A stretch of DNA of 64,000 nucleotides from Pyrinomonadaceae bacterium (GTDB lineage Bacteria > Acidobacteriota > Blastocatellia > Pyrinomonadales > Pyrinomonadaceae), in NCBI GenBank assembly GCA_021228405.1, contig JAJQRF010000003.1, forward strand, positions 89,581 through 153,580, in the 5' to 3' direction. Under the pieces are notes generated by a model. The model did not search any database, had not been told where the DNA came from, and saw only the letters and a list, made by a program, of their open reading frames with translations. Both the position numbers and the translations under genes were made by a program. Shown piece by piece: positions 1 through 27,871 of the stretch; within the stretch, counting starts at the first letter, position 1; each line of letters opens with the position of its first letter.

Positions 1-8
1 AGCGAAAA

Positions 9-11537: not shown

Positions 11538-11541
11538 GATT

Positions 11542-11856
11542 TTAATTCAAAGTAACGTGGTTGGTTAGCCCGAGCATTTCAAATAGCTGAATTGTGTCGC
11601 TGTTCACATCGGAAAAAACGACATCCGCTCCGGCATCGGAAGCGGCATCGATCACGCCCAGCAAGATCGATACTCCGATGCTGTTCACGATTTCCGTTTC
11701 GGAAAAATTAACGACCAGTTTTTTACAGCCTGATTCGAGCTGGCGGCGGCATTCACGCTCGATCTTTTCTCCGGTCAATTTGTTTAAATAGTTGTTGGCA
11801 AATACAGTTGCCGTTTCACCTTCGCTCTGGACGGGTATCTGAATAGTTGTTTCCAC
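11542..11856 (-). CDS. STAS-domain anti-sigma factor antagonist (RsbV/SpoIIAA type)
   Basis: The 104-aa single STAS domain matches the usual antagonist length. VNSIGVSILLGVID occupies the position of the D-S-S/T-G motif, where the partner kinase phosphorylates a serine or threonine. Translation probably starts at GTG (11854-11856). The gene lies 70 bp after a gene whose C-terminus is an RsbW-type kinase domain, the natural partner in a partner-switching module. No sigma factor gene is adjacent, so the regulated output is unknown. Confidence 0.88.
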   Translation of the reverse strand: METTIQIPVQSEGETATVFANNYLNKLTGEKIERECRRQLESGCKKLVVNFSETEIVNSIGVSILLGVIDAASDAGADVVFSDVNSDTIQLFEMLGLTNHVTLN

Positions 11857-11926
11857 TTTATTTGTGCTTTCTCGGTTAGATTTAAGACTCGAAAGCTAAA
11901 GTAATCCTTTAAGCGGATTTTGTCAA

Positions 11927-14128
11927 CTAATTTTGCAGATATTTCGTCATCGAAATGCGCGTTCCGTCATCCATCTGCTCGAACTTCACGTCGTCCATCA
12001 AGGTTTTCATCAATTTCAAGCCCCAACCGCGTCTGCCTTCGTCGGGACTTATTTCGTGCGGTTTTTTATTACTAAAGCGCAAACCGCGATTTGAAATCGT
12101 GATAACTATTTTGTCGTTTTCGACCGTAAATTTCTGATAAATCTTACGGTCGGGACTCAAAGAATGTTCGGTCGCATTGATGCAGGCTTCGACCAGAGCG
12201 GTCTTGATCTGATTGATCGCTTTCGGTGTAAACGAATGACGGCGGGCGATTTCTTCGACCGTCTGCGCGGCGATCATTTCCGTGTCTTCGCCCATCGGCA
12301 CGACCATTTCATATTCGTTCGCTTTGAGTTTTTCGCCGAGAACGTCTTTTGCGCCGAGATAATTTATTAAAAGTTCGATCTGTTTGCGCGACGAACCAAA
12401 CGCGTTTCGATTTTTCAAAATGTCAATCGCTTCGGGCGAAAAACCTTCGGGCGCAACGAGCCAAATCTTGTAATTGAGAAAATTGCACATCAGCGCGACA
12501 ATCTCCAAACGGTCGCACCAAAATTCGGTTAATTCTTTGTTCGCTTCGAGTTTTGAATCGATTTCGGCGGCAATCCAGACGGTTTCGTCTTCGTCCGTGT
12601 AATCGCATCTTTGAAATCCGAGCGCGACCGCCGAACGTTCCTTTTCGATCGAATGTTGGATTTGCGGATAAAAAGCGACCGTGTTTGCCGTGTAAACAAT
12701 CTGCGGCAAATCGATCTTTTCCGTTTCACCGTTTAAGGCTTTAAAGATTTCTTCATCGGTCGCGCCTTTCAGTTCGTCGCGGAAACTGCTGTAATCGATC
12801 AAAGAAAACGGGATTTGCTGGCAATTGAAAACGGTCAGAAGCTCGCGCAGACCGATTGCCGAATTGCGGCGGTAATATTTCGACATCAAAATCGGTGCAC
12901 GTTTAAGAAAAAGCGAAAGCATTTCGCCGACCGTTAAAGCGCGGTTTTCCGACATAATTTCGAGCCTGAAACGCGCCGTCACGTAATCGCTCAAAATATC
13001 GTTGTCGCTCATCGCTTCGACCATATTCGTCGTGACGCGAATCATCTCGTTGGCGTTCAAAAAGTTCATCGCACGGTAAAAATTAGCACCGTTGAAACCG
13101 ACGCGGGTTTGCCACGAATCGATCGGCGTTTTTTCTTTTTCGAGCGTCAGCGAATCATACAAAAGTCCGAGAATGTTGCGTTGCGTTTCAGCATTCGGCG
13201 AAATTTCCTCAAAAACGCGCTCGAAATGTTTGCTGATCCTGCCGCCGAAAAGTTCGTTCGCATAAATCTGCTGAACGCGCTGAAAACTTTCCAGACTTCC
13301 GCCGTTTTGACTCGCGGATTTTACCAGATATTCGATAAAAGCAGGATTTCCCTGAAACTGCGTCGCGACCAGATCGCGCGTTTGATTGTTTATTTTAACG
13401 TTATATTTTGCGGCTAAGGTTTCCGCCAAAAGTCCCGCGTCGGAAAACGAAAGCGGCGAAAGCAGTAAACTTTCGTAATTTTCCTTATTTTTGCCGAACA
13501 GAAAACGCCGTCTGCCCGATAGAACGAAAGGAATGTCGGCGCGGCTGAAAACATCCTGAAGTTCGCCGATAAAGTTCGTTTCTTCGGAAAAATGTGCACA
13601 ATTGTGGAGATCGTCGATCATCACAAAAGTTCTGACACCGTGCGCGGCGGCGCGAAGCGGTGCACCGAGTGCTTGACGAATCAGCGTTTGCTCGTCATTA
13701 AGGTAATTTTCGCCCTGGTAAGTTTCAACCAGACGGTCGATCCAAACGCCGTCCGAAGGCAACGCGATCTCGCTTAATTCGTTAATGTCGCCGACAAAAT
13801 TATTGATTCCCGCATCCTGACGGCGAAACGCGACGATCTGCGTGAGAAAATCGTGCAAAAATCTCAAAACGCAGTGAGTGACGCTGTGATCGGTGCTTTT
13901 GACGGCAAAATAGATCGGAAGGATCTCGCCGTTTTCATAAAAAAGCTGGTCGTAGGTTTGTTTGAGAAGCTCCGAAGCACCCGACGAAGGGGCGGATAAA
14001 AGCAGAAAGCCGCGACTTGAGTTTTCGCTTTTGGCGTGCCGCAAAAGCACGTCCAGTTCCTGCGTTCTGCCGATAAATTCTTCGGCGGAAACGTTTGCCA
14101 GATTTTTTCTACGCTGTGATTCAATCAT
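11927..14128 (-). CDS. AAA-like domain protein with C-terminal RsbW-type histidine-kinase-like ATPase
   Basis: The 733 aa start with an AAA/orc1-like ATPase region (about 15-330). Its P-loop position reads SAPSSGASE, lacking the invariant Gly-Lys, while FVMIDDLHN fits a Walker B. A long helical middle follows. The C-terminus (about 590-730) is a GHKL domain, with VEACINATEHS as N-box and GRRGWGLKLM as G-box, typical of RsbW anti-sigma kinases. It may combine a degenerate sensor ATPase with a kinase that phosphorylates the STAS protein encoded next. It lies between the GGDEF and STAS genes on the same strand. The ATPase fold is a pattern-based call, whereas the RsbW part is firm. Confidence 0.82.
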   Translation of the reverse strand: MIESQRRKNLANVSAEEFIGRTQELDVLLRHAKSENSSRGFLLLSAPSSGASELLKQTYDQLFYENGEILPIYFAVKSTDHSVTHCVLRFLHDFLTQIVAFRRQDAGINNFVGDINELSEIALPSDGVWIDRLVETYQGENYLNDEQTLIRQALGAPLRAAAHGVRTFVMIDDLHNCAHFSEETNFIGELQDVFSRADIPFVLSGRRRFLFGKNKENYESLLLSPLSFSDAGLLAETLAAKYNVKINNQTRDLVATQFQGNPAFIEYLVKSASQNGGSLESFQRVQQIYANELFGGRISKHFERVFEEISPNAETQRNILGLLYDSLTLEKEKTPIDSWQTRVGFNGANFYRAMNFLNANEMIRVTTNMVEAMSDNDILSDYVTARFRLEIMSENRALTVGEMLSLFLKRAPILMSKYYRRNSAIGLRELLTVFNCQQIPFSLIDYSSFRDELKGATDEEIFKALNGETEKIDLPQIVYTANTVAFYPQIQHSIEKERSAVALGFQRCDYTDEDETVWIAAEIDSKLEANKELTEFWCDRLEIVALMCNFLNYKIWLVAPEGFSPEAIDILKNRNAFGSSRKQIELLINYLGAKDVLGEKLKANEYEMVVPMGEDTEMIAAQTVEEIARRHSFTPKAINQIKTALVEACINATEHSLSPDRKIYQKFTVENDKIVITISNRGLRFSNKKPHEISPDEGRRGWGLKLMKTLMDDVKFEQMDDGTRISMTKYLQN

Positions 14129-14267
14129 CTTTGTTCAGACGGTTTCCAGCCTTGCGAAAAGCAAAGCTTCGCCGTCAAATCTCTTTAAGAATGTTGGGAG
14201 TCCTATTTGAAACTTTTCATTATAACGAACCTTAAGGTAAAACTGTCCGTTTTTTCGGTTTCTATTC

Positions 14268-16469
14268 TTAGAAACCATTATTCGCGCTGAAATTCCCGTC
14301 TAATTTTTCGTAAACCTGTACATTATTTCTGCCTTTGCGCTTGGCTTCAAACAAAGCCTTGTCCGCCGCCAGAATCAAGGTCTGCGGCGAGTTCAGTTCA
14401 TACGAACAAGTGGCGACACCGATGCTGATCGTGACCTTGCGGTTCGGGAAAACCGTTTCGTCGATGCGCTGACGGATGCGTTCGGCGATCGTTTCGGCTT
14501 CTTCACCTGTCGTTTGCGGAAGCAGGATCGAAAATTCCTCGCCGCCGTAACGCGCCGCCACGTCCGCGCCGCGCAGATTGACGCGCATTTCGGAAGCGAC
14601 GATCTTCAGGGCTTTATCGCCTTCGGGATGACCGAAAAGATCGTTATAAGCTTTAAATTCGTCCACGTCGATCATCATAAAACTCATCGGATAACCGTGA
14701 CGGTTCGAGCGTTTGAGTTCTTCCGTCAAACGTTCTTCGAGATAGCGGCGGTTCAAAAGTCCGGTCAGAACGTCGGTCACGGAAAGCTGTTCAAACTCTC
14801 CGGCTTTATCCTTCAGCAGTTCGCGGTCGATCGCAACGGCGATCTGCGGCGCGATCGCCTGTAATAATTCCAGATCGAATTCGCTGAAAGTTCCGCTGTC
14901 GGCGCGGTCGGTAAAATTGAGCACGGCAATTTTGCGTTCGCCGAGCGAGATCGGGTAACTGATGAAAGATTCGGTTCGGTATTTGCGCGGCGCGGGCGAA
15001 GTGTTAAGATCGGATTGACGCATATCCGCGACGATCATCGGTCTGCCTTCGCGCAAAACTATCTTGGCGACGCGTTCGCCGATCTTTTCGAGCTTCGTTA
15101 AATCTTCAACGACACCGACGGCGGCTTTCGCTTCGAGTTCGTCCGTTTTTTCGTTATAAACCAGCAAAGAGGCACGTTCGGCTTTCAGCATTTCGGCGGA
15201 GATTTGCGTCAGCATCAGCCAGAAATCTTCGGAGTCTATTTTTTTCAGATTTTCGTTAAATTTCCCGACCGATTCGCGCATCAGATCGCGCTGTGAAAGT
15301 TCCTCGCGCAAACGCAGAATCTCCAATTCCGAGGCGACCGTCTGACAAAAACGCGCAAGTTGTTTTTTACGCGCACGGTTTTCGATGTGATCGCCGACGA
15401 CGAGCGCGCTGCGGACTTCGCCGCCGACCGCGATCGGGAAAAGATTTATCGTCTGCGTTTCGCCGGTTTCTTCGTGCGGTTTGCGTTCGCGCATTTCGAG
15501 CGAAGATTCGTTTCCGGCGGCTTCCAAAAGACGTTCATCATCGGCGGGAACAGCGATCTGCACCTGACGTTTTTCAAGACTGCCGATAGCGAGCACCGTA
15601 ACCAGACGGTTTTCCTTTCTTTCGAGCCAGATCATCGAAGTCAGCCCGTAACGTTTGGCGAGAAAATCCAAAACGGCGATGCAAGCCTGTCGGTATTCCA
15701 ACTTTAACAGCGAACCGAAAAGCGAACGCCACGAAGCGATCTCTTCGGCTTCTTCGCGGTTTTTGCGGGCTATTTTCTCGTAATTTTCGGAATTATCGGC
15801 GGCGTTTTGCTGAAATTCTTCGACCAGACGCGCGATTTCTTCGGCTTGCGAAACGGCGTTTTCCTTTTTTCCGGTTTCGGGTTCCGCATCAACGTCTTTT
15901 AGTTCTTCGACGCTCGTTTCCGTTTCATCACCAACGGTTTCGGTGTTTTCGGTTTCCGCAACGGGCGGCGCATCTTCAATATTCGCAAAATTTCTTTTCG
16001 CTTCATCGTCCAGTTTGCCGATCTTGATCGCGACTTTCTCGGCGGGCTGTGTCGAGCTTCCCAGAAGCACATTGTCGAAAAATTTTGTCGGCGGAAAATC
16101 CGTCCAATCGCCTGAAATAGCGCGTTGGGTCGCCTGCCGGTAATTGTTCGCTTTGAGAAAGTTTCGTCCGACGATGGCGACGAGCGATTTTTCTCCCGCT
16201 TTAAAAGGAACTGCCAGACAATTTAATCCCGCATAACATTCATAGCTGACGGTTTCACCTGCTTCGTGCGCTTTTTTAAACGCTTTGCCGCAATATTCGG
16301 CGCAGTCGGGTGCAAACTCTTTTGAAGAATAAAGCTCGCGGCACATCGAGTTATTGTTCGCTTCCGCCGCCACGAAATTGTTTTCATCGACGACGGAAAT
16401 CGCCAGCCCGCTTTCGTCGGCAAGTTTTTCAACCATCGATTTCTGAGTGTTTTTTCGGCTATCGCTCAT
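14268..16469 (-). CDS. Diguanylate cyclase with PocR-like sensor and GAF domain
   Basis: The 733 aa begin with a PocR-like sensory domain (about 15-125) containing CRELYSSKEFAPDCAEYC and ECYAGLNCLAVPF, cysteine-rich as in that family. An acidic linker (about 165-205) and a coiled-coil stretch follow. A GAF domain spans about 385-555 and a C-terminal GGDEF domain about 565-715. The active-site motif is GGEEF (642-646), and an RxxD inhibitory site (RGAD) lies five residues before it, so product feedback is expected. It makes cyclic-di-GMP from GTP. It heads the minus-strand signalling block, with a divergent DJ-1/PfpI gene upstream. Confidence 0.9.
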   Translation of the reverse strand: MSDSRKNTQKSMVEKLADESGLAISVVDENNFVAAEANNNSMCRELYSSKEFAPDCAEYCGKAFKKAHEAGETVSYECYAGLNCLAVPFKAGEKSLVAIVGRNFLKANNYRQATQRAISGDWTDFPPTKFFDNVLLGSSTQPAEKVAIKIGKLDDEAKRNFANIEDAPPVAETENTETVGDETETSVEELKDVDAEPETGKKENAVSQAEEIARLVEEFQQNAADNSENYEKIARKNREEAEEIASWRSLFGSLLKLEYRQACIAVLDFLAKRYGLTSMIWLERKENRLVTVLAIGSLEKRQVQIAVPADDERLLEAAGNESSLEMRERKPHEETGETQTINLFPIAVGGEVRSALVVGDHIENRARKKQLARFCQTVASELEILRLREELSQRDLMRESVGKFNENLKKIDSEDFWLMLTQISAEMLKAERASLLVYNEKTDELEAKAAVGVVEDLTKLEKIGERVAKIVLREGRPMIVADMRQSDLNTSPAPRKYRTESFISYPISLGERKIAVLNFTDRADSGTFSEFDLELLQAIAPQIAVAIDRELLKDKAGEFEQLSVTDVLTGLLNRRYLEERLTEELKRSNRHGYPMSFMMIDVDEFKAYNDLFGHPEGDKALKIVASEMRVNLRGADVAARYGGEEFSILLPQTTGEEAETIAERIRQRIDETVFPNRKVTISIGVATCSYELNSPQTLILAADKALFEAKRKGRNNVQVYEKLDGNFSANNGF

Positions 16470-16709
16470 CTGCTTTTGAGTAAAAATCTCTTTCGGGTAG
16501 ATGCGGCTCGCGCATCCGCCGTTTGTATAAGAGATTCTGCATATACTTGCTTAATATATTCAATCGGTTTCGATTTTCAAGAAAAAATATGCAGTCAATT
16601 TTTCTTTATCTAATTATGGCACAGAACTTGTTTTCATTACTATGCAAACACTGTGCTGAACGAAAACGAAACAGTTAAGTTTCATTGTGCAGAAAGGATT
16701 AAACATTAT

Positions 16710-17282
16710 ATGAACGAGAAATTAAACGGAATAAAGGTAGCAATATTGGCAACGGACGGATTCGAGCAAAGCGAATTGTTTGAACCGAAGAAGGCTTTAG
16801 AAGAAGCGGGCGCGGAAGTTTCGGTCGTTTCGCTTGAAACGGGCGAGATCACCGGCTGGAACGAGAAAAACTGGGGCGATTCGATCGCGGTCGATCTGAC
16901 GGTCGCAGAAGCAAACGCGGCGGACTTCGACGCATTACAGCTTCCGGGCGGCGTATTCAATCCCGACAAACTGCGGATGAACGAAAAAGCCGTCGCCTTC
17001 GTCAAAGCGTTTTTCGAGGCGGGCAAACCCGTCGCGGCGATCTGTCACGCGCCGTGGACGCTGATCGAAGCCGGGGTCGTCAACGGCAGAACGGTTACTT
17101 CGTGGAAATCTTTGCAGACCGATCTCGAAAATGCGGGCGCGAAATGGGTCGATCAGGAAGTCGTCGTCGACAACGGCTTGGTGACGAGCCGCAATCCGCA
17201 GGACATTCCGGCATTTAATAAGAAAATGATCGAAGAATTCGCCGAAGGCGTGCATCGCAAACAGAAAACGGCGGCGCAATGA
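16710..17282 (+). CDS. DJ-1/PfpI family protein (type 1 glutamine amidotransferase-like)
   Basis: About 190 aa from the ATG at 16710, chosen because AGAAAGGA lies about 11 nt upstream and the domain begins at once (VAILATDGFEQSEL). The nucleophile-elbow cysteine is in AAICHAPW. The PfpI/YhbO subgroup includes chaperone, deglycase and general-stress proteins, and several have weak protease activity. The role here is probably stress protection. In-frame codons continue upstream to 16653, but that extension does not look like family sequence. It diverges from the diguanylate cyclase gene. Confidence 0.9.
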   Translation: MNEKLNGIKVAILATDGFEQSELFEPKKALEEAGAEVSVVSLETGEITGWNEKNWGDSIAVDLTVAEANAADFDALQLPGGVFNPDKLRMNEKAVAFVKAFFEAGKPVAAICHAPWTLIEAGVVNGRTVTSWKSLQTDLENAGAKWVDQEVVVDNGLVTSRNPQDIPAFNKKMIEEFAEGVHRKQKTAAQ

Positions 17283-17443
17283 TTTCATACAGGCGTGTTT
17301 CGATTCATATCATTCGGATTCATACAAAAATCGCAAACACGCCTATTTTATTAAGTTTCAACGCGTGGCACACAAATTGAAACAGACATTAATAACGAGC
17401 AAGGGGTAGGTAACACAAACGAACAAGGGAAGGTATTAAATTT

Positions 17444-17956
17444 ATGAACAACGAATATACGAATGCAAATACGATCGACAACGATAACGTGATTTCGACG
17501 CTGAACAATTTGATCGAAACCTGCAAGGATGGGCAGGAAGGCTTCAAACAATCGGCTGAAGGCGTTCAGAATTCCGAATTGAAAAAGGTTTTCTACGAAT
17601 ACGGTCAACAACGGGCACAATTTACGGGCGAATTACAAAGTTTGGTGCGTGAGTTCGGCGGCGATCCCGAAACATCGGGTTCGACTACGGGCGCATTGCA
17701 TCGCGGTTGGATCAATATCAAATCCGCAATCACGGGACAAGACGATGCGGCGATCTTGAACGAAGCGGAACGCGGCGAAGATGTTGCCAAAAATGCCTAT
17801 AAATCGGCGTTGGAAGAATCGCTTCCGGCAAATGTTTCGCAGATCATCCAACAGCAATACACACAAGTTCAGGCGGCGCACGACAATATTCGCGCACTGC
17901 GTGATTCTGCAAATAACATTGAGAACTCGGCTTCTCAGGGTTATGCAGGCTATTAG
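17444..17956 (+). CDS. PA2169-family four-helix-bundle protein (DUF2383)
   Basis: The 170 aa are all-helical. NDNVISTLNNLIETCKDGQEGF opens a ferritin-like four-helix bundle of the DUF2383/PA2169 type, and GALHRGWINIKSAITGQDDAAIL and AERGEDVAKNAYKSAL are typical family segments. Members are often stress-induced and of unknown biochemical function. An AGGGAAGG RBS precedes the ATG and a strong terminator follows, so the gene is monocistronic. Confidence 0.88.
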   Translation: MNNEYTNANTIDNDNVISTLNNLIETCKDGQEGFKQSAEGVQNSELKKVFYEYGQQRAQFTGELQSLVREFGGDPETSGSTTGALHRGWINIKSAITGQDDAAILNEAERGEDVAKNAYKSALEESLPANVSQIIQQQYTQVQAAHDNIRALRDSANNIENSASQGYAGY

Positions 17957-17992
17957 TCAGACACGACTCTTTTTCATTTTTTTTAGACTCCG

Positions 17993-18023
17993 AAAAAAGG
18001 CTTGATTTCACCAAGCCTTTTTT
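17993..18023 (+). terminator. Rho-independent terminator
   Basis: AAAAAAGGCTTG and CAAGCCTTTTTT pair around a 7-nt loop, ending the DUF2383 transcript. Confidence 0.92.
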
Positions 18024-18430
18024 ATTTTGGATTTTGGATTTTGGATTTTGGATTTTTAATCTTGAATCTGAAACTGTATTTAAGGTCGGACAAACTTCAG
18101 TTTGTCCCTTAACACAGCCCATCCAAAATATCGAAAAAACCGCGCCGCCCGTTCAATTGCGGAAAGAAACAAACTAAAGTTTTTTCGACGCTTTAAAGTA
18201 TCTGATAAAATGCGACCACGAAGAAACGCGTCAAACAATTCAAGACTCACAACTCACGATTTAAGACTCAAAGTTCAGAATTCCAATCCAAAATCCAAAA
18301 TCTAAAATCCCAAATCCGATTGCATTTCCACGCGATTTTTGTTAAATTTCCTGTCAAATAAATAATTAATAAACAGTTTGCGACAATCTTAGCCATAATT
18401 TTCGATTGTCGTGATAAAACATTTGATTTT
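18024..18430. other. Repeat-rich spacer before array B
   Basis: No gene is seen. The spacer holds a tandem TTTTGGA run (18028-18058) whose complement, CCAAAATCC words, returns at about 18282-18312. It also holds a perfect CAAACT-NN-AGTTTG palindrome at 18088-18107 and a degenerate copy near 18166-18185. Confidence 0.6.
18088..18107. repeat. Palindrome CAAACT-TC-AGTTTG
   Basis: GGACAAACT-TC-AGTTTGTCC has 9-bp perfect arms and is of the same family as the palindromes beside array A. Confidence 0.8.
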
Positions 18431-18451
18431 TTATTTTAAATAATGGTCTTT

Positions 18452-18766
18452 GACATCAAAAAGATAGCTTTCGACATTTAAATAATCGAATCCGACATTT
18501 AAATAATTCGACTCAGCATTAAAAAAATCGAACTCAACATTTAAATAATTCAAATCAACATTTAAATATTCGTTCTCGACGTTTAAATAATTCAAATTGA
18601 CGTTTAAATAATTGAATTCGACATTTAAATATTCGTTCGTGACATTTAAATAATTCAAATCGACACGAAAGAAATTCAAATCGACGTTTAAATAATTCAA
18701 ATCAGCATTTAAATAATTCAAATCGACGCACAAATAATCTTGCTCAGATTTCAAACTTTAGTTTGA
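18452..18766. repeat. Array B: fifteen units of exactly 21 nt, A/T-rich
   Basis: Units begin every 21 nt from 18452 (18473, 18494, and so on to 18746). The consensus is GACATTTAAATAATT followed by CRAATC. Several units differ by substitution but none by length. Because 21 is a multiple of three, the minus strand stays open as heptads of the Y-L-N-V-D-L-N type. That frame has only a TTG start and no RBS, so I treat it as DNA repeat and not as a gene. The last unit runs into a CAAACT-TT-AGTTTG palindrome. Confidence 0.92.
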
Positions 18767-18768
18767 AA
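18749..18768. repeat. Palindrome CAAACT-TT-AGTTTG at the end of array B
   Basis: TTTCAAACT-TT-AGTTTGAAA has 9-bp perfect arms and overlaps the last array B unit. Confidence 0.8.
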
Positions 18769-18883
18769 ATCCAAAACAAGCCATATTTTTAGTTTTATTT
18801 CGGCTCGCAGAGCATTTTTTTCTTAATAACCAATGTTTTCTTAATTAAAACCTAAGAAATATAGCCTATCGGAGGAAAATAAA

Positions 18884-19594
18884 ATGAATGTAAAAATATT
18901 AAACAAACGTCAGGAAGCAAAACTTAATTCTTTCGATCTCCTGATCGAATATTTCGATGAAAACCCTTTGATCGTCAATGAAAATGCCGCCTTTAAAGCC
19001 GCCGTTGAGGAAGTAAAGCCGCTGATTGCCGAGGTCAAAGCGAAAGCACCGGAAAGTGCCGCCGTGACCGAAGGCATCACGACCGGCAAACGCAATTTGA
19101 AGGATGCGGTTGTCAATAAAACTGCGGCAATCGGCGGTTCGATCTACGCTTTTGCCGCTAAAAACGGCAATGATGAAATGAAAGCCGCCGTCAGTTTTAC
19201 CAAAACCGAACTGAAAACGCTGAAAGACGGAGAGCTTGCCCTGCGCTGTCAGGCACTGCATGATCTGGCACTCGCAAACCGCGCCGAACTCGAGCCTTTC
19301 GGCGTAACGACCGCCAAATTGACCGAACTGCAAACAGCCATCGACAACTACGCGCAATCCGTCCCGAAACCGCGCGCCGCGATCACGAGCCGTTCCGTGC
19401 TGAAAGCCGAAATCAAACAGCTTTTCGTCCGCCTGGACAGCATTTTCGATGAACAACTGGACAAATTGGTCGAAAATTTCACCGAAACGCACCCAAGTTT
19501 TGCCGCTAACTACCGCGCCAAACGAAAAATAATCGACCCGCGCCGAAACAAAAAGAAAAACGGCGAAAACCCGATCGTCAGTCCGCCAACGTAA
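18884..19594 (+). CDS. Hypothetical helical protein
   Basis: The 236 aa have no signal peptide, membrane span or recognised domain. The protein is largely helical and charged, with alanine-rich central helices (about 40-190, for example AAIGGSIYAFAAKNGNDEMKA) and a very basic C-terminus (about 215-232, KRKIIDPRRNKKKNGENP). A clear GGAGG lies 9 nt before the ATG, so it is very likely expressed. It sits between array B and a terminator, next to the restriction-modification pair. The basic tail could suggest nucleic-acid contact, but this is speculation. Confidence 0.75.
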   Translation: MNVKILNKRQEAKLNSFDLLIEYFDENPLIVNENAAFKAAVEEVKPLIAEVKAKAPESAAVTEGITTGKRNLKDAVVNKTAAIGGSIYAFAAKNGNDEMKAAVSFTKTELKTLKDGELALRCQALHDLALANRAELEPFGVTTAKLTELQTAIDNYAQSVPKPRAAITSRSVLKAEIKQLFVRLDSIFDEQLDKLVENFTETHPSFAANYRAKRKIIDPRRNKKKNGENPIVSPPT

Positions 19595-19633
19595 AAAAAT
19601 ATGAAATAAAAGCGGAAAAAATCAACCCGAATC

Positions 19634-19665
19634 AGCGCGGACAAATATTTGTCCGCGCTTTGTCT
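19634..19665 (+). terminator. Rho-independent-like terminator
   Basis: AGCGCGGACAAAT and ATTTGTCCGCGCT form a nearly loop-less palindrome followed by TTGTCT. It separates the helical protein gene from the restriction-modification genes. Confidence 0.75.
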
Positions 19666-19721
19666 AATCAATAGATCGAACTTAAAATACAAAGACAAAA
19701 TTGCCATTTTTCTTAAAATAA

Positions 19722-20588
19722 ATGAATAAAGATGAAATATTAATTGCACTTCAGAAAGAAGTCGAAAACTACAACAAAATTATCGCAACCGATAAAGGAG
19801 ATTGGATCGTCAAAGGTTTTATTGACATCTATAAAAACATTTACACGATCTCGATCGATACGAAAGTTGTTTCAAAAGTTATCGAACTGCTTCTCATACC
19901 CGCGTTTGAGTCTTTTGCAAAGAGAAACGATCTAACACTCGAACTGCCTCCGCAACAAAACTTTTATCCTGATCTTACCTTTATTTCAAATAAATCAGGT
20001 GAAAAGTTTGCGGTCGATATTAAAAGCACTTTCAAAGACGCAGGTAATAAAATTAAGAGTATGACACTGGGGGCTTTTACGGGCTATTTCCGCAACAGAG
20101 AAAGTATGAAAAATACTCTCTATCCATACGGTTCTTACTCGGCACATTTGGTTTTAGGCGTGATTTACTCTCAAAATGAATCGGTTCAAAACGAGAAAAC
20201 AATTTACAGTTTAGATGAAATTGAAAATATCGAATCGGTCATTAAGGATTTCAGATTTTTCGTTCAGCCGAAATACAAAATTGCTTCGGCAAGTCCGGGA
20301 AGCGGAAACACTAAGAACATCGGTGCCGTAAACAACTTAGAAAAATTGATTAATGGTGAAGGTATTTTCGCGGAGTTGGGAGAGGAAATATATGATGATT
20401 ACTGGATGTATTTCCTTACCAAAGATATGGCAAAAACATTAGATATTCCCAGACCTTATACAAACTTAAAAACTTATTTAGAGTATAAACAGCGCGGAAT
20501 TGATATACTTCAAGAGCATAAAGAAGAGATTGAACAACTTGATGCAGAAGCCGAAGCAAACGAAAGCGAATCAGAGAGTGATGAGTAA
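19722..20588 (+). CDS. EcoRV-type type II restriction endonuclease
   Basis: The 288 aa align along most of their length with EcoRV as I know it. The catalytic set is E55 (VIELL), D84 (YPDLTF) and D99/K101 (VDIKST), matching EcoRV E45, D74, D90 and K92. The Q-loop PPQQN is kept, and the recognition loop GSGNT (193-197) is identical. Predicted target is GATATC with a blunt cut. The protein is longer than EcoRV (245 aa) by an acidic C-terminal tail whose end overlaps the methylase start by 8 bp. The region is A/T-richer than its surroundings, consistent with transfer. No GATATC was seen in the window. Confidence 0.93.
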   Translation: MNKDEILIALQKEVENYNKIIATDKGDWIVKGFIDIYKNIYTISIDTKVVSKVIELLLIPAFESFAKRNDLTLELPPQQNFYPDLTFISNKSGEKFAVDIKSTFKDAGNKIKSMTLGAFTGYFRNRESMKNTLYPYGSYSAHLVLGVIYSQNESVQNEKTIYSLDEIENIESVIKDFRFFVQPKYKIASASPGSGNTKNIGAVNNLEKLINGEGIFAELGEEIYDDYWMYFLTKDMAKTLDIPRPYTNLKTYLEYKQRGIDILQEHKEEIEQLDAEAEANESESESDE

Positions 20589-21504
20589 AATAATAGTTCC
20601 GCCAATCAAAAGTCAGGGTATCAAAACCAAATTAGTTCCCTGGATAATGGAAGTTGCGAAAGTTGTAAACAAGAAAAGATGGATTGAGCCTTTTCTCGGA
20701 ACAGGTGTGGTTGCCTTTAACTCGGGATTTCAGGAAGGAATCCTGAACGACATAAATCCGCACATCATAAATTTCTATCGGCAAGTTCAGAACGGAGAAA
20801 TAACGCCGTTGAAAGCGAAAAGTTTTTTGGAGATCGAAGGTAGAAAACTTTCGGAGGCAAACGAGGAAGGTTACGAACATTTTCGTTATATACGCGACCG
20901 TTTCAATCAGGATTTCGATCCGCTCGATCTGCTTTTCCTTTCGCGTGCGGGTTTTAACGGAATGATGCGATTTAACAGCAAAGGATGTTGGAATATTCCT
21001 TTTTGTAAAAAACCTAATCGCTTCAATCAATCTTATATAACTAAAATCGTAAATCAGATTGCCAACGTGAAAAATGTTATTACCAACAAATGGGAATTTA
21101 AGAATAAAAATTTTACGGAAATTATTTCGCTGGCAGATGAAAACGATATGCTCTACTGCGATCCGCCTTATTTTGGAAGATATGTTGATTATTACAACGG
21201 TTGGACAGAGCGCGATGAAGAAATTTTATTTGAGATGCTTTCACAAACAAAAGCAAATTTCATACTTTCGACCTGGCATCACAACGATTGGCGGGAAAAT
21301 ACGATGATTAAAAAGTTATGGAATAAATTCAATATAGTTACGAAAGATCATTTTTATCATTCGGGCGGTAATCTCGAAAATCGTAAATCAATCGTTGAAG
21401 CTTTAATCTGCAATTTCGAGATTAAACGAATTAGTCAGCATAATCACGAAGCCGCCAACAAAAAACAATCTGCTCAAATTTCATTATTTCAGACATTCAA
21501 CTAA
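20581..21504 (+). CDS. EcoRV-type adenine-N6 DNA methyltransferase (Dam-like)
   Basis: About 307 aa from the ATG at 20581, chosen because the protein then opens with the M.EcoRV-like IIVPPIKSQGIKTKLVPW. The AdoMet motif is EPFLGTG (36-42) and the catalytic DPPY lies at 194-197. NGMMRFNSKG and STWHHNDWREN are also shared with M.EcoRV. It would methylate adenine in GATATC and protect the host from the endonuclease encoded just upstream. The order is endonuclease then methylase with an 8-bp overlap and no visible controller protein, so translational coupling is likely to set the balance. Confidence 0.94.
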   Translation: MSKIIVPPIKSQGIKTKLVPWIMEVAKVVNKKRWIEPFLGTGVVAFNSGFQEGILNDINPHIINFYRQVQNGEITPLKAKSFLEIEGRKLSEANEEGYEHFRYIRDRFNQDFDPLDLLFLSRAGFNGMMRFNSKGCWNIPFCKKPNRFNQSYITKIVNQIANVKNVITNKWEFKNKNFTEIISLADENDMLYCDPPYFGRYVDYYNGWTERDEEILFEMLSQTKANFILSTWHHNDWRENTMIKKLWNKFNIVTKDHFYHSGGNLENRKSIVEALICNFEIKRISQHNHEAANKKQSAQISLFQTFN

Positions 21505-21540
21505 ATGATTTTTCAGACCGAAACCGAACGTTAAGAAAGA

Positions 21541-21616
21541 ACAGTGGATAGTTGATAACTGATAGTCAATAACTGATAACTGTTTTTTCACTATCCACTA
21601 TCAACTATCAGTTATT
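21541..21616. repeat. Inverted repeat of TAACTGATA words between convergent genes
   Basis: CAGTGGATAGTTGATAACTG and its complement CACTATCCACTATCAAC flank a TTTTTT centre. The arms hold tandem TAACTGATA words. The repeat lies between the methylase and oppF-like gene ends, suited to bidirectional termination. Similar words recur at 33113-33200 and 41720-41775. Confidence 0.7.
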
Positions 21617-22708
21617 CTCTATATACGGATGTTCGGGCGAAATGCGGATGCAGGCGGCGAAATGGTTCGGTTTGATTTCGGTTAATTGCGGGACGATCTG
21701 CGAACATTCGGCAATCGCAAACGGGCATCGCGTGTGGAAATGACAGCCCGACGGCGGGTTGATCGGCGACGGCACATCGCCTTTCAGGATGATGCGCTCG
21801 CGCTTCGCTTCAACTTCGGGGTCGGGCACGGGAACGGCTGAAATCAACGCTTTCGTGTAGGGCATCAAAGGGTCGGCGTAAACGTCTTTGCCGTTTGCGA
21901 GCTCGACGATCTTTCCGAGATACATCACCGCGACGCGATCGGACAAATGACGGACGGCGCGGAGGTCGTGCGAGATGAAAAGATACGTCAGATTTTTTTC
22001 CGATTGGAGCTTTTCCATCAGATTCATAATCTGCGCCTGAATCGAAACGTCTAAAGCGGAGATCGGTTCGTCGGCGACGATGAATTCGGGATCGACCGCG
22101 AGCGCGCGCGCAATGCCGATGCGCTGACGCTGACCGCCCGAAAATTCGTGCGGATAACGCTTCACGAAACGCCGCGACATCCCGACCGTTTCCATCAATT
22201 CCTGCACGCGTTCTTCGACCGAAAGACCGTTGGCAAGATTAAAAGTGCGAATCGGTTCGCCGATGATCTGCCCGACGTTCATTCGCGGATTTAAGCTGGC
22301 ATACGGGTCTTGAAAGATCATTTGCAGATTTTTCCGCTGATCGCGCATCGCCCTTTGTGAAAGATGCGCCAAATCCTTGCCGTTATAAAAAACCTGTCCG
22401 CCCGTCGGTTCGGTCAGCCGCAAAATAGCCTTGCCGAGCGTCGATTTCCCGCAACCCGATTCGCCGACCAGCCCCAAAGTTTCACCGCGCCGAATATCGA
22501 GCGAAACGCCGTCAACCGCTTTGACAACTTTTTTACCCGAAGCTTGAATCTTCACATCGTTCGCTTCGGAAGGCTCGGAAACAGGCATCGCACCGCGAAA
22601 ACCGCGAAAAGTTTGTGCAATGAGCGAGCCTAAACCCGCACCGCCTGTTTTATAATGAACCTTTAAATCCTGAATCGAAATTAAATTTTCCACGTTAGTT
22701 TCCGTCAT
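21608..22708 (-). CDS. Peptide ABC transporter ATP-binding protein (OppF/DppF type)
   Basis: The 366-aa ABC ATPase has Walker [10 protein letters not shown], signature [15 protein letters not shown], Walker [13 protein letters not shown], and the C-terminal oligopeptide-transporter segment with the cysteine cluster [14 protein letters not shown], usual for Dpp/Opp ATPases. An insertion of about 40 aa (about 30-60) lies between the first strand and Walker A. It is the last gene of the operon and overlaps the preceding Uma2 gene by 14 bp. It should pair with the OppD-like ATPase (23390-24409) to power import of oligopeptides. Confidence 0.93.
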
Positions 22709-23393
22709 TTTGTTTTTTTAATTCGGCAATTTCTTTTTCAAGCTGCTCGATCTTGTTTTGTGCAATTCTTTCCTTCGCTGCGAGTTCTTGAATGGTCGGC
22801 AAAAATTCGATCTTTTCGTGATCGAAAAACTTCAAAGTCAATCCGTCGTCAACCAATTCGAGATTCAAAAGCGGACTGTAAACGCGGTTGTTCTTCGTTT
22901 CGACCGCTTCATATTCGCCGTTTTTCAAATGATACGCCATCAAAGGATTCGGCAAATAGCTTCGTTCGGGATCGTAAACATAATATTCGCTTACGCCGAG
23001 CCTTTCGTATAGTGCATATTTGACGCTGATGTCTTTTTGCCAGGTGCTTTCGGATGCAATCTCGAAAATGATCGAAGGCGCAACTTTTTCCTTCCACAAT
23101 TCATAAACGCGGCGCGGCGTGTTTTTAACCCCGAAACAAATCATCAGATCGGGCGCAACGAATCTTTTCGGCTCACCTTCTTCGTAATAAAGCATAATAT
23201 CGCCCGTCACGAAAACGTCCTTCCGCCACGCAAAAAACAGTTCGAGCATCTGCGCCAAAGTATTGATAAACCAAAAATGAATCGAATTTTGCCCCATTTC
23301 AGTTCCATCCGTTTCGGGATAATAAACGTCTGCTTTCTCAGGCGGATAATAAATCGGCGTTTTTTCCAATCCGGTAAAAACATCTATACTCAT
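22695..23393 (-). CDS. Uma2-family PD-(D/E)XK-like protein
   Basis: The 232 aa belong to the Uma2/DUF820 family, a restriction-endonuclease-like fold of unknown biological role. The core shows [25 protein letters not shown] with the acidic PD position, then [12 protein letters not shown] and [22 protein letters not shown]-terminal coiled coil ends in [14 protein letters not shown]. It overlaps the upstream OppD-like gene by 4 bp (ATGA) and the downstream OppF-like gene by 14 bp, so it is translated as part of the transporter operon. Function in peptide transport is not evident. Confidence 0.88.
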
Positions 23394-24409
23394 AACTTCT
23401 CTCTTTCAGCCACCGATTCGGCGTAAACTTCCTTTGCAAAATGGCACAAAGAACTGTGATTTTCGTTGATCTGCACAAACGGCGGATATTGCGAACGGCA
23501 AATGGCTTCGGCGCGTTCGCAACGTTCGGCAAACGGACAACCCGGCGGAAGATGCGCCACGTCGGGCGGAAGTCCGGGAATCTGATAAAGTTCTTTTCCC
23601 TGCTCGTGCGCCGGATCGGGAACCGATTTTAACAAACCTTTCGTGTATGGATTGGCGGGAGTCGCAAACAATTCCTTCGTCGGTGCTTGCTCGAAAACCT
23701 TTCCGGCATACATTACGATGATCTTTTCCGTCATTCCCGCGACCACGCCGAGATCGTGCGTGATGAGAATCACGCTCGTTCCCATCCGTTCTTTCAAATC
23801 CTTGATAAGCTCGAGAATCTGCGCCTGAATCGTGACATCCAAAGCGGTCGTCGGTTCGTCGGCGATCAATAATTCGGGATCGCACGACAAAGCCATCGCG
23901 ATCATTACGCGTTGGCGCATCCCGCCCGAAAATTCGTGCGGATAATTGTCGATGCGGTTTTCCGCGTCGGGAATTCCGACCGTTTTCAGCATTTTTATCG
24001 CGTGTTCGCGGGCTTGCTCCTTCGTGTGTCCGAGATGCAGACGCGTGACTTCCATTAATTGCGTCGAGATTTTCAGAAACGGGTTGAGCGAAGTCATCGG
24101 GTCTTGAAAGATCATCGCAATGCGTTTGCCGCGAATCTTGCGGACATCATCAATTGAAAGTTTGCGCACGTCGATGCCGTTGAAAATAATGTCGCCGCCG
24201 ACAATCTTTCCCGGCGGTTCGGGAATCAGGCGCATCACCGAAAGATTCGTGACCGATTTCCCGCTGCCCGATTCGCCGACGATGCCGAGCGTTTCGCCCT
24301 TTTTCAATTCAAACGTGATGCCGTCAACCGCCTTTACCACGCCGTCTTCGGTCTGAAAATAAGTTTTCAGATCATTAACCGATAAAATTGTCCCGTTAGT
24401 TTCGATCAT
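23390..24409 (-). CDS. Peptide ABC transporter ATP-binding protein (OppD/DppD type)
   Basis: The 339-aa ABC ATPase has Walker [10 protein letters not shown], signature [15 protein letters not shown] and Walker [15 protein letters not shown]-terminal oligopeptide/dipeptide domain contains [14 protein letters not shown], whose cysteines in some homologues bind an iron-sulphur cluster. It overlaps Uma2 genes by 4 bp at both ends (ATGA junctions), showing tight translational coupling. It acts at the inner face of the membrane with the OppB/OppC-like permeases encoded upstream. Confidence 0.94.
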
Positions 24410-25062
24410 TTATTTGCTTGTAACCAATCCTGAAAATCCGATAAAACTATAAATTGCTGTTCCGTCTGACCGCGTTTGAGATATTCGGTCAAAACTCCGC
24501 TCGTTAAGATCGGCAATTCTTCGCTTCGTTCGATCTCTTTGTATTCGTTCGTTTCCTGCAATTTGAAAATCTTTAATCTTTCGCCGTTATATTGCCAAAA
24601 TTCGGAAATGCCGAAATCCGCATAAATCCGAAATTTATCGTCCGACGGATGATGAACGTCGATTTCGCCGACAATATCAGGCGCAAGTTCCAACTCTTTC
24701 GGCACGTAATCTTTTGTTTGATGAATATCGGCTTTGCTCACGAAAAACGAAAGATCGGGTTCGACACCGTAATGCAGACGCTCGGAACGCATCGTCGCTT
24801 TGCCTGTCGAGATAACATTTATCCGCAAAGCCATTCCTGCAAACCGAATGAAATCATAAAGTAAACTCGTCAATAATTCGTGTAATTCCGTAACAGGCAT
24901 AATTGTCAAAGTTCCTCGGTCATAGGTTAAATGAACGGGCGAAGATTCTCCGATCTCTTCCGAAATTTCTTCGTAAGTGTGCCAATCAATGCCGACATAC
25001 TGCATCGGATGTTTCAGACTTACCAACGCTTCTCTCGAAAATGTGACTTCTGCCGTAACCAT
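24406..25062 (-). CDS. Second Uma2-family protein in the transporter operon
   Basis: The 218 aa have the Uma2/DUF820 core: VHLTYDRGTLTIMPVTELHE, GVEPDLSFFV with the acidic PD position, ELAPDIVGEIDVHHPSDDK and YADFGISEFWQY. It is distinct in sequence from the Uma2 gene at 22695-23393, so this is not a recent duplication. It overlaps the OppD-like gene by 4 bp. The PD-(D/E)XK fold predicts possible nuclease activity, but Uma2 proteins have no settled function. Its repeated placement between transporter genes is odd. Confidence 0.88.
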   Translation of the reverse strand: MVTAEVTFSREALVSLKHPMQYVGIDWHTYEEISEEIGESSPVHLTYDRGTLTIMPVTELHELLTSLLYDFIRFAGMALRINVISTGKATMRSERLHYGVEPDLSFFVSKADIHQTKDYVPKELELAPDIVGEIDVHHPSDDKFRIYADFGISEFWQYNGERLKIFKLQETNEYKEIERSEELPILTSGVLTEYLKRGQTEQQFIVLSDFQDWLQANK

Positions 25063-25065
25063 AAA

Positions 25066-25596
25066 TTATTTAACTTCTTTGCACTGTCTGATGCCCGAAT
25101 TTTCGACGATGTCGATCACCGTAACGGTTTTCTTGCCCTTGTAATTTGCGTAAAAAAAGCTCACGCCTTTATATTCCAAACCGTCCTTGTTTTTACCGTA
25201 GATTCGGTAAATGTCTTCGAGCGTGCTTTTGCCCAAAACTATTCCTTTTGCGGTCTTGACCTGGAAAGGAGCACGCATTTCGATGTCGAAAATTTCCTTT
25301 TTCGTGTCGGCTTGGCACGAATAAAACGCTAAACCGAGTTTCGGGTAAACGATCGCAGTCGAATATTTGCCGTATTTTTTCGTTTGATAACTTTTTCCGA
25401 ACTTTTTGATAACATCCGCCGCCGTCGATCTGCCGACGCGGATTCCTTCGATGCCGACTCCTTCCTTTGCAACCTTTATTTTACTGCTTGTTTTATCCTT
25501 CGATGTGTCTTTTGGTTTGCTTTGCGCTTCGGCTGAAACTACAAAAAAACAACTCGCCAGAATCGTCAAAGCTACTGCAAAATAGCTTTTTTTCAT
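25066..25596 (-). CDS. Secreted hypothetical protein
   Basis: The 176 aa start with a signal peptide (about 1-25, KSYFAVALTILASCFFVVSAEAQ, cleavage after AEA). The mature part has two similar halves built on IRVGRSTAADVIKKFGKSY and IVLGKSTLEDIYRIYGKNK, a pattern of paired small domains seen in secreted proteins of unknown function. It lies 3 bp from the Uma2 gene and 56 bp from the OppC-like permease, within the same operon. It might be a periplasmic accessory, but nothing in the sequence shows this. Confidence 0.75.
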   Translation of the reverse strand: MKKSYFAVALTILASCFFVVSAEAQSKPKDTSKDKTSSKIKVAKEGVGIEGIRVGRSTAADVIKKFGKSYQTKKYGKYSTAIVYPKLGLAFYSCQADTKKEIFDIEMRAPFQVKTAKGIVLGKSTLEDIYRIYGKNKDGLEYKGVSFFYANYKGKKTVTVIDIVENSGIRQCKEVK

Positions 25597-25652
25597 TCAA
25601 ATCTCCTGTCATTATTTATTTCAAAAATCAGGGGCATTCAATTTGTAAAACT

Positions 25653-26615
25653 CTAGAACTTGCGCGTCTGCGGATCGAGCGCGTCGCGCAGTCCGTCGCC
25701 CAAAAAGTTGAGCGAAAAGAGCGTCAGAGCCATCGTCACGCCCGGGAAAATAAGTTGCCACGGGTAAATGGCGACGTTTTTGATGCCGTCCGCCGCCAGA
25801 CTTCCCCACGAAGCGAAAGGCGGCTGAACGCCGATTCCCAGAAACGACAAAAACGCTTCCGTGAGCATCACGCTCGGAATCGTCAAGGTCGCGTAAACGA
25901 TCACGGGACCGAGCGTATTCGGAACGAGATGACGGAAAATAATCGCAAACGTCGAAACGCCCGTCGCCCGCGCCGCCATCACGAATTCCTGATTTTTCAA
26001 ACTCAGAATCTGCCCGCGCACGACGCGCGCCATCGTCAGCCACGAAACCAGCCCGAGTGCGAAAAACAACAGAAATATCTGGCTCAATCCCTGATTTCCT
26101 TCGCCGCCGATCTTGTCCGACAATATTTTTATCCATTCGGGCATATTCGACCCGCCGAAAACCGAAAGCAGAACGATGACGATCAGAATATACGGAATCG
26201 AATAGAGAATATCGACGATTCGCATCATCAGATTATCGATCGAACCGCCTAAATATCCCGCGATCGCACCGTAAGAAACCCCGACAATGAGCGAAACGAT
26301 CGTCGAAATGATGCCGACCATTAGCGAAATCCTGCCGCCTTGCAGAACACGCGCTAAAATATCGCGTCCGGCATCATCCGTTCCCATCGGATGTTGAAGC
26401 GACGGCGGAAAAGATTTAACCAGTTCATTTTCGGGCGGAATGTAATAATAAGTATATCCGGTTGCCCATCTGATGATTGCCGGACCGATGATGACCGCGA
26501 TTATCATTACGATCATCACGATCAAACCGAAAACCGCCAGTTTGTTTTTCAGCAGACGCTTCCACGCATCTTTCCAAAGCGATGTTCCTTTTACCGTTGT
26601 TGTATTCTCTGCCAT
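25653..26615 (-). CDS. Peptide ABC transporter permease (OppC/DppC type)
   Basis: 320 aa from the ATG at 26615, giving MAENTTTVKGTSLWKDAWKR. This is the typical OppC N-terminal cytoplasmic segment, followed by the first membrane span (AVFGLIVMIVMIIAVIIG). Six spans in total are expected. The cytoplasmic EAA loop that contacts the ATPase is around VSTFAIIFRHLVPNTLG. It lies 5 bp after the OppB-like gene. An in-frame extension upstream to 27041 overlaps the OppB gene and is not real. Confidence 0.94.
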   Translation of the reverse strand: MAENTTTVKGTSLWKDAWKRLLKNKLAVFGLIVMIVMIIAVIIGPAIIRWATGYTYYYIPPENELVKSFPPSLQHPMGTDDAGRDILARVLQGGRISLMVGIISTIVSLIVGVSYGAIAGYLGGSIDNLMMRIVDILYSIPYILIVIVLLSVFGGSNMPEWIKILSDKIGGEGNQGLSQIFLLFFALGLVSWLTMARVVRGQILSLKNQEFVMAARATGVSTFAIIFRHLVPNTLGPVIVYATLTIPSVMLTEAFLSFLGIGVQPPFASWGSLAADGIKNVAIYPWQLIFPGVTMALTLFSLNFLGDGLRDALDPQTRKF

Positions 26616-26620
26616 AAAAT

Positions 26621-27535
26621 CTACTCGTAGCGAATGCGCGGGTCTAAAAATCCGTAGGAAATATCGACCAAAAGATTGAAAACCATAATCAAGATCGAAA
26701 GAAAAGCAACGATGCCGAGAATCAAGGGTTCGTCGCGGTTCAAAACGGCTTGAATAAAAATATTGCCCAATCCGGGAATCGCAAAAACCTTTTCGACAAC
26801 AACCGTTCCCGCCAGAAGTCCGGCAAGCGCGGGACCCGTAAAAGAAACGACCGGAATCAACCCGCCGCGCACCGCGTGCCGCAACAAAACGGTTTTCTCG
26901 TCCAAACCTTTCGCACGCGCCGTGCGAATGTAATCGGAACGCAGAACTTCGAGCATTCCCGCACGTGTCAAACGTGCAATGTAAGCCGCGTAAATCGCCG
27001 ACAAAGTGATGACCGGCAAAATAATTCCCGACAAACTCCAACGCGCCGGCGGAAGCCAGTAAAGCCAGAGCGAAAATATCAGAACGAGAATCGGACCCAG
27101 AACGAAATTAGGCACGGAAAGTCCGAGCATCGCAAGCGACATCGAACCGTAATCGAATCCCGAATTCTGCTTGAGCGATGCAATGATCCCAGCCGTCAAA
27201 CCGATCGCAAGCGCGAGAATGTAAGCCAATAAACCGATAATCGCCGAATACGGAAAAGACCGCCAGATCAGTTCGTTGACCGTTTCGCGTTCGTATTTCA
27301 GCGAATTGCCGAAATCGCCGCGCACCGTGTTCCAGAGCATAATCCCGTATTGCTGATACCACGGTTTGTCGAGTCCGTATTTTTTCTTGATATTTTCCTC
27401 GATCGCGGCAGGTAATTTTTTCTCGCCCGTGTAAAAGTTTCCGGGCGCGATGCGCACCAAAACCCACGTCAGCGTAATGACCAGCAACGCCATCGGAATT
27501 ATCAAAAGTAATCTGCGAATGATGAAACTTAGCAT
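26621..27535 (-). CDS. Peptide ABC transporter permease (OppB/DppB type)
   Basis: The 304 aa show the standard OppB start MLSFIIRRLLLIIPMALLVI as the first membrane span, the TLTWVLVRIAPGN motif and five further spans. The EAA loop is DYIRTARAKGLDEKTVLLRHA. It forms the membrane channel together with the OppC-like protein. Its start overlaps the end of the small coiled-coil gene upstream by 1 bp, and the OppC gene follows after 5 bp. Confidence 0.95.
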   Translation of the reverse strand: MLSFIIRRLLLIIPMALLVITLTWVLVRIAPGNFYTGEKKLPAAIEENIKKKYGLDKPWYQQYGIMLWNTVRGDFGNSLKYERETVNELIWRSFPYSAIIGLLAYILALAIGLTAGIIASLKQNSGFDYGSMSLAMLGLSVPNFVLGPILVLIFSLWLYWLPPARWSLSGIILPVITLSAIYAAYIARLTRAGMLEVLRSDYIRTARAKGLDEKTVLLRHAVRGGLIPVVSFTGPALAGLLAGTVVVEKVFAIPGLGNIFIQAVLNRDEPLILGIVAFLSILIMVFNLLVDISYGFLDPRIRYE

Positions 27536-27867
27536 TATTTTTTCCCTTTATTACTTTTTCCGTTTCCGTCGCTGAAAAACTTTTCCGCCATAAAAATTAC
27601 GGCGTTAAGACGTTCATCAGTTTCCCGTAAACGATTATCGGTTTCCTTTTGAGATTCGCGCAATTCTTTGATTTCCGCAGATATTTGCGCGATATTTTTC
27701 CCCTGTTCGACGGTCGAGTTATACAAATTAAGCGAAACTCGCTCCAATGTTCCGAGCCGTTTTTCGGCTTCTTTATGGGCTTCTTGAAGTTTTTGAATGT
27801 CGGCTGAAAATTGTGCTTGATTATTCAAGATAAACTCCATAGTTCTTTCCAGTTTTTCATCATCCAT
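27535..27867 (-). CDS. Small coiled-coil protein in the opp operon
   Basis: The 110 aa are nearly all coiled coil (MDDEKLERTMEFILNNQAQF, then repeated heptads through LRESQKETDNRLRETDERLN), ending in a basic tail. No signal peptide or membrane span is seen. Short coiled-coil proteins of this pattern are often encoded beside Uma2 genes or transporters in Cyanobacteria and Acidobacteriota; that association is from general familiarity. It sits between the substrate-binding protein gene (5 bp) and the permease gene (1-bp overlap). Confidence 0.75.
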   Translation of the reverse strand: MDDEKLERTMEFILNNQAQFSADIQKLQEAHKEAEKRLGTLERVSLNLYNSTVEQGKNIAQISAEIKELRESQKETDNRLRETDERLNAVIFMAEKFFSDGNGKSNKGKK

Positions 27868-27871
27868 AAAA

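Follow-up and report, generated by a model that had tools for sequence, protein, structure and literature searches.

The window, that is, the whole 64-kb stretch of DNA that was analysed, contains a pair of restriction-modification (R-M) genes on its forward strand, and several restriction words are missing from it from end to end:

19722..20588, + strand: R, an EcoRV-family Type II restriction endonuclease of 288 aa, predicted to cut GATATC (from Pfam, phmmer and residues)
20581..21504, + strand: M, an M.EcoRV-like adenine methylase of the D12 class (from Pfam, identity to the NC_005019 methylase and, for its start, the alignment of homologues)
1..64000, no strand: stretch without GATATC, GGCC, TTCGAA, GACGTC, GGCGCC, AGATCT, CTGCAG or ATGCAT (from word counts)

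The R protein, encoded by the open reading frame at 19722-20588, matched the whole domain of PF09233 (Endonuc-EcoRV; 5.6e-108, 360 bits with a cut-off of 25, model positions 2-244 of 244), and its residues 28-234 were aligned by phmmer with the solved EcoRV chains at around 1e-34. It keeps E55, D84, D99 and K101, together with QQN at 78-80 and GSGNT at 193-197, thereby conserving the catalytic residues and the two recognition loops. In EcoRV the catalytic residues are E45, D74, D90 and K92, and the corresponding loops serve in recognition. The M protein matched PF02086 (MethyltransfD12; 5e-42, 145 bits). Its frame is open along 20500-21504, from a TTG at 20500, and translation probably starts at the ATG at 20581, with an overlap of 8 bases with the end of R, because most homologues align only from around residue 19-37. 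Of 30 homologous loci in other genomes, 25 have a relative of M close to R, and M is present in all 11 genomes of the class Blastocatellia that hold R, one of which (G109) has it on a separate contig. Judged by sequence, the pair is thus an EcoRV-family endonuclease with its Dam-type cognate methylase, an orthodox Type II system. The target of R is predicted to be GATATC, because its residues and loops are kept, M and the methylase of the EcoRV plasmid NC_005019 share 51.9% identity (over 87%), and M relatives accompany R in most loci. The preliminary description of this DNA had reported the pair, its coordinates, the residues and motifs listed above and the predicted target; genes, coordinates and residues are as it gave them, and the target stands as a prediction from the residues.

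The EcoRV endonuclease of the E. coli plasmids (NC_005019) belongs to the same family as R, with 32.3% identity over 80% and the same catalytic residues and loops. The arrangement is different, with R and M head to tail on one strand in the window and on opposite strands (R minus, M plus) in NC_005019. The location differs as well, the E. coli system being on a small plasmid and the window pair on a 516-kb contig of a genome purged of sites. The EcoRV-type cassettes of Bacteroidota (for example L083, L107 and L084) have the same R-M order as the window. The cassette is flanked by a gene that ends at 19594 and by an ABC-transporter gene (21608-22708). Scans of the cassette for repeats, promoters and terminators found nothing marking a mobile element. 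Directly 3' of the methylase (21529-21627) there is an imperfect inverted repeat with 44-base arms, 70% complementary, and short tandem GATAGTTGATAACT units, and just upstream of the gene preceding the cassette, at 18431-18754 on the minus strand, a 107-aa open reading frame built from repeats of a NYLNVDLNYLNV-like unit, which is either a gene or a repeat array. The window also carries two tRNA genes, Arg(tct) and His(gtg), at 52475-52726 on the plus strand.

As claimed in the preliminary description, GATATC is absent from the window. Dinucleotide shuffles gave an expectation of 12.5 ± 3.7, a maximal-order Markov model 12.2 and base composition 17.0, so that the 15-18 sites proposed earlier agree with base composition and exceed the Markov value. 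The earlier count by eye of around 45-50 GATAT strings was somewhat low, the real number being 54, and its observation that none precedes C was right: the next base is T in 29, G in 14 and A in 11. In the window ATAT is followed by C in 53 of 235 cases, which gives a probability of around 1e-6 for none in 54, and the sibling words AATATC (29), CATATC (12) and TATATC (12) are common, as had been said. Strong avoidance was further confirmed at the genome level, with 35 GATATC in 5,719,470 bases (5.72 Mb, 20 contigs) against around 982 expected, the Markov value of an 864-kb sample (148.4) scaled up, in such a way that around 3.6% of the sites are left. In the sample itself the ratio of observed to expected (O/E) was 0/148. 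The sample excludes four stretches chosen for holding GATATC and the other fetched R-M loci, a bias that does not affect GATATC, GATATG and AGATCT as counted over the whole genome. For GATATC in the genome, maximal-order Markov O/E served as the measure of avoidance, in place of the Kr of Karlin used by Rusinov 2015.

The surroundings (4 kb) of 34 of the 35 remaining sites were compared with 700 background windows. GC was below 0.43 around 15 of the 34 sites (50 of 700 in the background), and at least four other avoided sites were found near 17 of them (65 of 700), taking into account that a single A/T-rich island (C7:603-623 kb) carries seven GATATC sites and that sites within one island are not independent. 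DNA that appears to be imported is thus enriched in leftover sites, though the GC is ordinary around 19 of the 34. Three A/T-rich stretches, probably imported (C7:603001-623000, L016; C7:637000-647000, L064; C13:1-60000, L020, L080 and L081), contain a good number of the words that the genome otherwise lacks, with TTCGAA, CATG, GTAC and GATATC in most of them and GGCC at zero.

Fifteen restriction words, GATATC among them, were found at 0.15 of expectation or less in the 864-kb sample. Besides GATATC, the emptiest were GGCC (2/2802, around 0.1% of expectation), GRCGYC (1/939), TTCGAA (3/827), RGCGCY (7/703) and AGATCT (3/271), followed by ATGCAT (1/73), GCCN5GGC (3/189), GTCTC (18/299, 0.062), CATG (109/1443), CTGCAG (13/165), GTAC (73/892), CTCGAG (19/199), TGATCA (29/287) and GTCGAC (48/320). 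The expectation for GCCN5GGC assumes independent halves; at other spacings, GCC and GGC showed O/E of 0.39-0.64 (0-2) and 0.81-1.35 (3, 4 and 6-12). Words fitting GGTNACC (4/94) and GCTNAGC (6/122) were also low among the spaced ones. The voids are of specific words, which we take to be targets of known restriction enzymes. Hexamers below 0.25 of expectation in the sample included 13 of the 57 palindromes with enough expectation and only 4 of 1967 testable non-palindromes, and the 64 hexamer palindromes taken together had an O/E of 0.53. Among the A/T-only palindromes of the window, O/E was close to 1 for TATATA (0.93), ATATAT (0.96), AATATT (0.93), TTATAA (1.15), ATTAAT (1.10) and AAATTT (0.93), and lower for TTTAAA (0.77) and TAATTA (0.59).

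The methyltransferases of the genome were also surveyed, and 28 matches to four families were found, which we grouped in 20 loci. Twenty proteins encoded there were scanned with Pfam, which detected endonucleases of the HindVP, Alw26I, BglII and BglI families and a DpnI; the Alw26I match falls below the NCBIfam cut-off. We assume for them the specificities of the type enzymes, GRCGYC for HindVP, GTCTC for Alw26I, AGATCT for BglII and GCCN5GGC for BglI. For all five endonucleases with a site suggested by their family, EcoRV included, that site is at 0.062 of expectation or less. The BglI-like enzyme was found first and its word was counted afterwards, and this word turned out to be the lowest of the spaced palindromes screened; the voids of the genome can therefore be read as a list of the specificities of its enzymes. 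DpnI is methyl-directed, and GATC showed an O/E of 0.95. A DpnI-family endonuclease lies beside a short D12 methylase fragment (C19:46544-46738 and L069:4742-5530), with GATC unavoided.

No enzyme was found in the Pfam and NCBIfam scans of R-M-locus proteins for GGCC, the emptiest word, TTCGAA or RGCGCY. Six putative endonucleases beside methylases (L066, L067, L070, L073, L078 and L079) matched no restriction family in Pfam or NCBIfam, and are candidates for these three voids. When five of them (L067, L070, L073, L078 and L079) were searched against plasmids with tblastn, three gave no match, L078 gave distant unannotated matches and L073 proteins called hypothetical. At C18:506392-506736 (L065:4881-5240) a C5 methyltransferase truncated to its N-terminal third lies next to a protein with a C-terminal NO VEIN domain, possibly the fossil of a lost R-M system.

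The preliminary description had considered that avoidance of unrelated palindromes to the same degree would speak against its reading. In the letter this is what was found, as the avoidance of GATATC does not exceed that of GGCC, GRCGYC, TTCGAA, RGCGCY and AGATCT; but the equally empty words are not unrelated to restriction, because endonucleases fitting GRCGYC, AGATCT, GTCTC and GCCN5GGC sit in the genome. With four other voids having fitting enzymes of their own, the GATATC void cannot therefore be read as the mark of the EcoRV-type system alone.

The imported look of the two genes, already pointed out, was borne out by their composition, with a GC of 0.363 in the cassette and 0.478 in the window, and a GC3 of 0.36 and 0.41 where four neighbouring genes have 0.57-0.62. 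In a tree of 34 R rows (midpoint root), the window R falls inside a clade of 11 rows together with ten from Bacteroidota (SH-aLRT 100), and nine rows from its class-mates form three groups apart from it. L104 (frame change), L108-L112 (partial or broken), the copy of G109 and a second one of G040 were not included in the tree, and the L083 stretch used in it has one stop. Identities of the window R were 63-82% to the ten Bacteroidota proteins of the clade, 39-58% to the class-mates, 85% over 202 residues to a Runella copy outside the tree, and 63% over 151 residues to a fragment labelled Acidobacteria (L110). These data indicate that the cassette, judged from its composition and the position of R, is probably an import from a Bacteroidota-like source. 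As a separate observation, no relative of the window M was found in the 19 kb examined around the EcoRV homologue of Flavobacterium soyangense (L088:8387-9208).

The cassette carries none of 16 host-avoided words, whereas nine homologous R+M cassettes of Bacteroidota hold 8-23 (mean 13.8), in such a way that the probability of finding none is around 1e-6 at the mean and around 3e-4 at the lowest value, 8. The nearest neighbours in the tree, two Flavobacterium copies of very low GC, hold 1 and 4 such words, a weaker test in which the R part only was compared. The other R-M loci have 0-5.7 host-avoided words per kb (0 in the DpnI locus and L067) and the A/T-rich islands 1.6-8.8. The rest of the window has 1.09, and the cassette is thus no richer in them than the host DNA that surrounds it. 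The lack of words in the cassette argues for some residence, the words having been purged before the composition drifted, or for arrival from another purged genome; a filtering of DNA at entry is a third, less likely way. Word loss may thus outrun the change of base composition in an imported gene. The preliminary description had proposed long residence of the system or its repeated loss and gain. Long residence of this allele alone is less well supported than repeated gain and loss, because the window R sits in the Bacteroidota clade, apart from the nine class-mate rows.

GATATC, GATATG and AGATCT were then counted in 162 whole genomes of Blastocatellia, with an index defined as the ratio of GATATC to the two-strand mean of GATATG. 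PF09233 was found in 11 of them, and the ten with an unbroken gene had indices of 0.03-0.46. The eleventh, G109, had 1.56, and its gene shows a frame change at a contig end, either a true break or an assembly error; this genome shares DNA (34 of 34 60-mers) with a contig of Chloracidobacterium sp. UBA6041, assigned by NCBI to Acidobacteriota, Blastocatellia. The median index of the 151 non-carriers was 1.37, and 18 of them were below 0.3. Neither R nor M was found in these 18 genomes, some of whose assemblies are 71-79% complete and may have missed a gene. At E <= 1e-30, M was present in 12 of the 162 genomes, 11 of them the R-holders. The other, G161 (L211), has an M.EcoRV relative without an R match, possibly an orphan methylase, and a normal index of 1.13; an orphan methylase was thus discarded as the origin of the GATATC loss in carrier-free genomes, since this is the only M holder without R. 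The methylase match of G156 contains four TGA.

The GATATC index was correlated with AGATCT density over the 162 genomes (rho 0.74), over the 133 with neither an EcoRV nor a BglII enzyme (0.67) and over 44 genera with neither (0.66). In samples of 12 low-AGATCT relatives, 6-25 hexamer palindromes were below 0.25 of expectation, against 1-2 in three g22 genomes; the sampled genomes of the class fall in two states, palindrome-avoiding and not. Among low-AGATCT genomes the median index was 0.16 in carrier genera and 0.44 in carrier-free genera (P = 0.001 per genus), and the EcoRV enzyme therefore seems to add to a general avoiding state. A preference for avoider genera is only suggested (7 of 8, against 30 avoider genera of 53 overall, P = 0.06). 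Within genera the effect of carriage was mixed, being clear in g13 (0.07 vs 0.53-2.0), slight in g43 and nil in g5, and in g30 one of the two carriers had the lowest index.

Other comparisons did not fit a simple rule. PF09195, the BglII family, occurs in 23 of the 162 genomes, and its holders show no significant drop in AGATCT per Mb (P = 0.065), with seven carriers in g22 and two in g52 in the normal AGATCT range of their genera. The BglII family may include several specificities, and for this reason the comparison, with no clean replication of the EcoRV result, is weak evidence either way. R-M richness was also considered as the cause of the two states, and its link, followed through PF01555, is weak: the number of matches gave a rho of -0.31 with the GATATC index and of -0.23 with AGATCT per Mb, and their density showed no link with AGATCT (P = 0.13). 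Avoiders had a mean of at least 6.3 matches per genome and the others at least 3.3, figures based on the best 16 candidates at most per genome, which undercounts rich genomes. In the 30 loci with EcoRV homologues in other genomes, GATATC was found 49 times against 100.9 expected, a loss that is not specific, as it ranks sixth of 64 palindromes with five others lower.

Taking these data together, we consider it likely that the EcoRV pair is an import, and that the GATATC void is one of at least 15 left in this Blastocatellia lineage by numerous orthodox Type II systems, both current and former. The system, Bacteroidota-like in its sequence, would cut unmethylated GATATC, and adenine methylation would protect the chromosome. 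A lag in methylation, or the loss of a system, would lead to self-cutting at the cell's own sites, in such a way that site-less variants would win and, through many gains and losses of systems, words would vanish from the genome. The resident EcoRV system would maintain, and probably deepen, a GATATC void also found in lineages without EcoRV. We infer that EcoRV-type systems arrived repeatedly in the lineage, with residents earlier than the present one, and that the present cassette was purged in turn. The initial interpretation is thus partly supported.

Among the other explanations, we regard as possible, if rather unlikely, that poverty in words came first, with past R-M systems emptying some Blastocatellia genomes of most restriction words, a self-reinforcing state in which new systems, including Bacteroidota EcoRV alleles, could establish themselves with hardly any cost from self-cutting. 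Intact EcoRV genes would then be restricted to palindrome-poor genomes, as in 10 of 10 cases here, and avoidance would be both cause and result of the gain of R-M systems.

It is doubtful, too, that the resident EcoRV allele alone emptied GATATC over a long stay, the other voids being separate stories of other resident enzymes. The low index of all ten intact carriers, below that of other avoiders, and a cassette without any of the words tested would fit this explanation, but an imported allele of foreign base composition would not; moreover, 18 of 151 genomes with neither R nor M are as low or nearly so, and GATATC and AGATCT fall jointly where both enzymes are missing. EcoRV as the single cause is therefore insufficient, given the other voids and the carrier-free avoiders.

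Very little probability is given to an entry filter, by which only DNA already free of host words would pass the many enzymes, the cassette would look purged without residence and imports would keep the genome clean. The word-free cassette of foreign composition, the equally clean DpnI locus and L067, and the lack of GGCC even in site-rich islands are in its favour, but two A/T-rich islands with 6.7 and 8.8 sites per kb indicate that site-rich DNA does enter, and a filter cannot empty an old core genome. Equally improbable is a selection against palindromes per se, by structure, repair or another nuclease and with no part for R-M, which the pooled O/E of the hexamer palindromes and whole genera that are poor in palindromes but lack the matching enzymes tested would suggest, but which is at odds with the uneven avoidance among palindromes, with most A/T-only ones near expectation, and with the purge of asymmetric (GTCTC), degenerate (GRCGYC and RGCGCY) and spaced (GCCN5GGC) sites.

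Avoidance through self-cutting, and the traces that lost systems leave, have been described before. In Rusinov 2015 (PMC4687349) the avoidance of sites of orthodox Type II systems, detected in around half of 1774 cases, is attributed to self-cutting at incompletely methylated sites, and is argued to outlive the systems, with traces where they are absent; GATC is described as an exception, being often avoided. According to PMC11324026, loss of EcoRV plasmids leads to SOS induction and killing in E. coli. The present case fits the self-cutting mechanism described in both sources. With the avoidance reported in PMC4687349 it shares the under-represented cognate sites, the traces without a system, the inclusion of asymmetric and degenerate sites and an unavoided DpnI site. 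It differs from what is described there in the near-total emptiness of many words simultaneously, and in the pairing of an R-M gene of foreign appearance with a site that is almost gone, which goes against the general trend of that paper but is reported there for Helicobacter pylori. A literature search covering a minority of subscription journals found no paper on the loss of restriction words in Blastocatellia. Site avoidance of this kind is already known, and this strong example contributes its extent, the enzyme-by-enzyme match and the two states of the class. The case shows how complete the loss of restriction words can become, with a few per cent of GATATC left in the genome and around one thousandth of GGCC in the sample.

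Avoiding and non-avoiding genera occur side by side in the class, which makes the order of avoidance and R-M gain testable. In two genomes of g22 (G088 and G087, L186-L191), GTCGAC is nearly gone (2/30 and 2/33, in 60 kb each) despite almost no other avoidance of hexamer palindromes.
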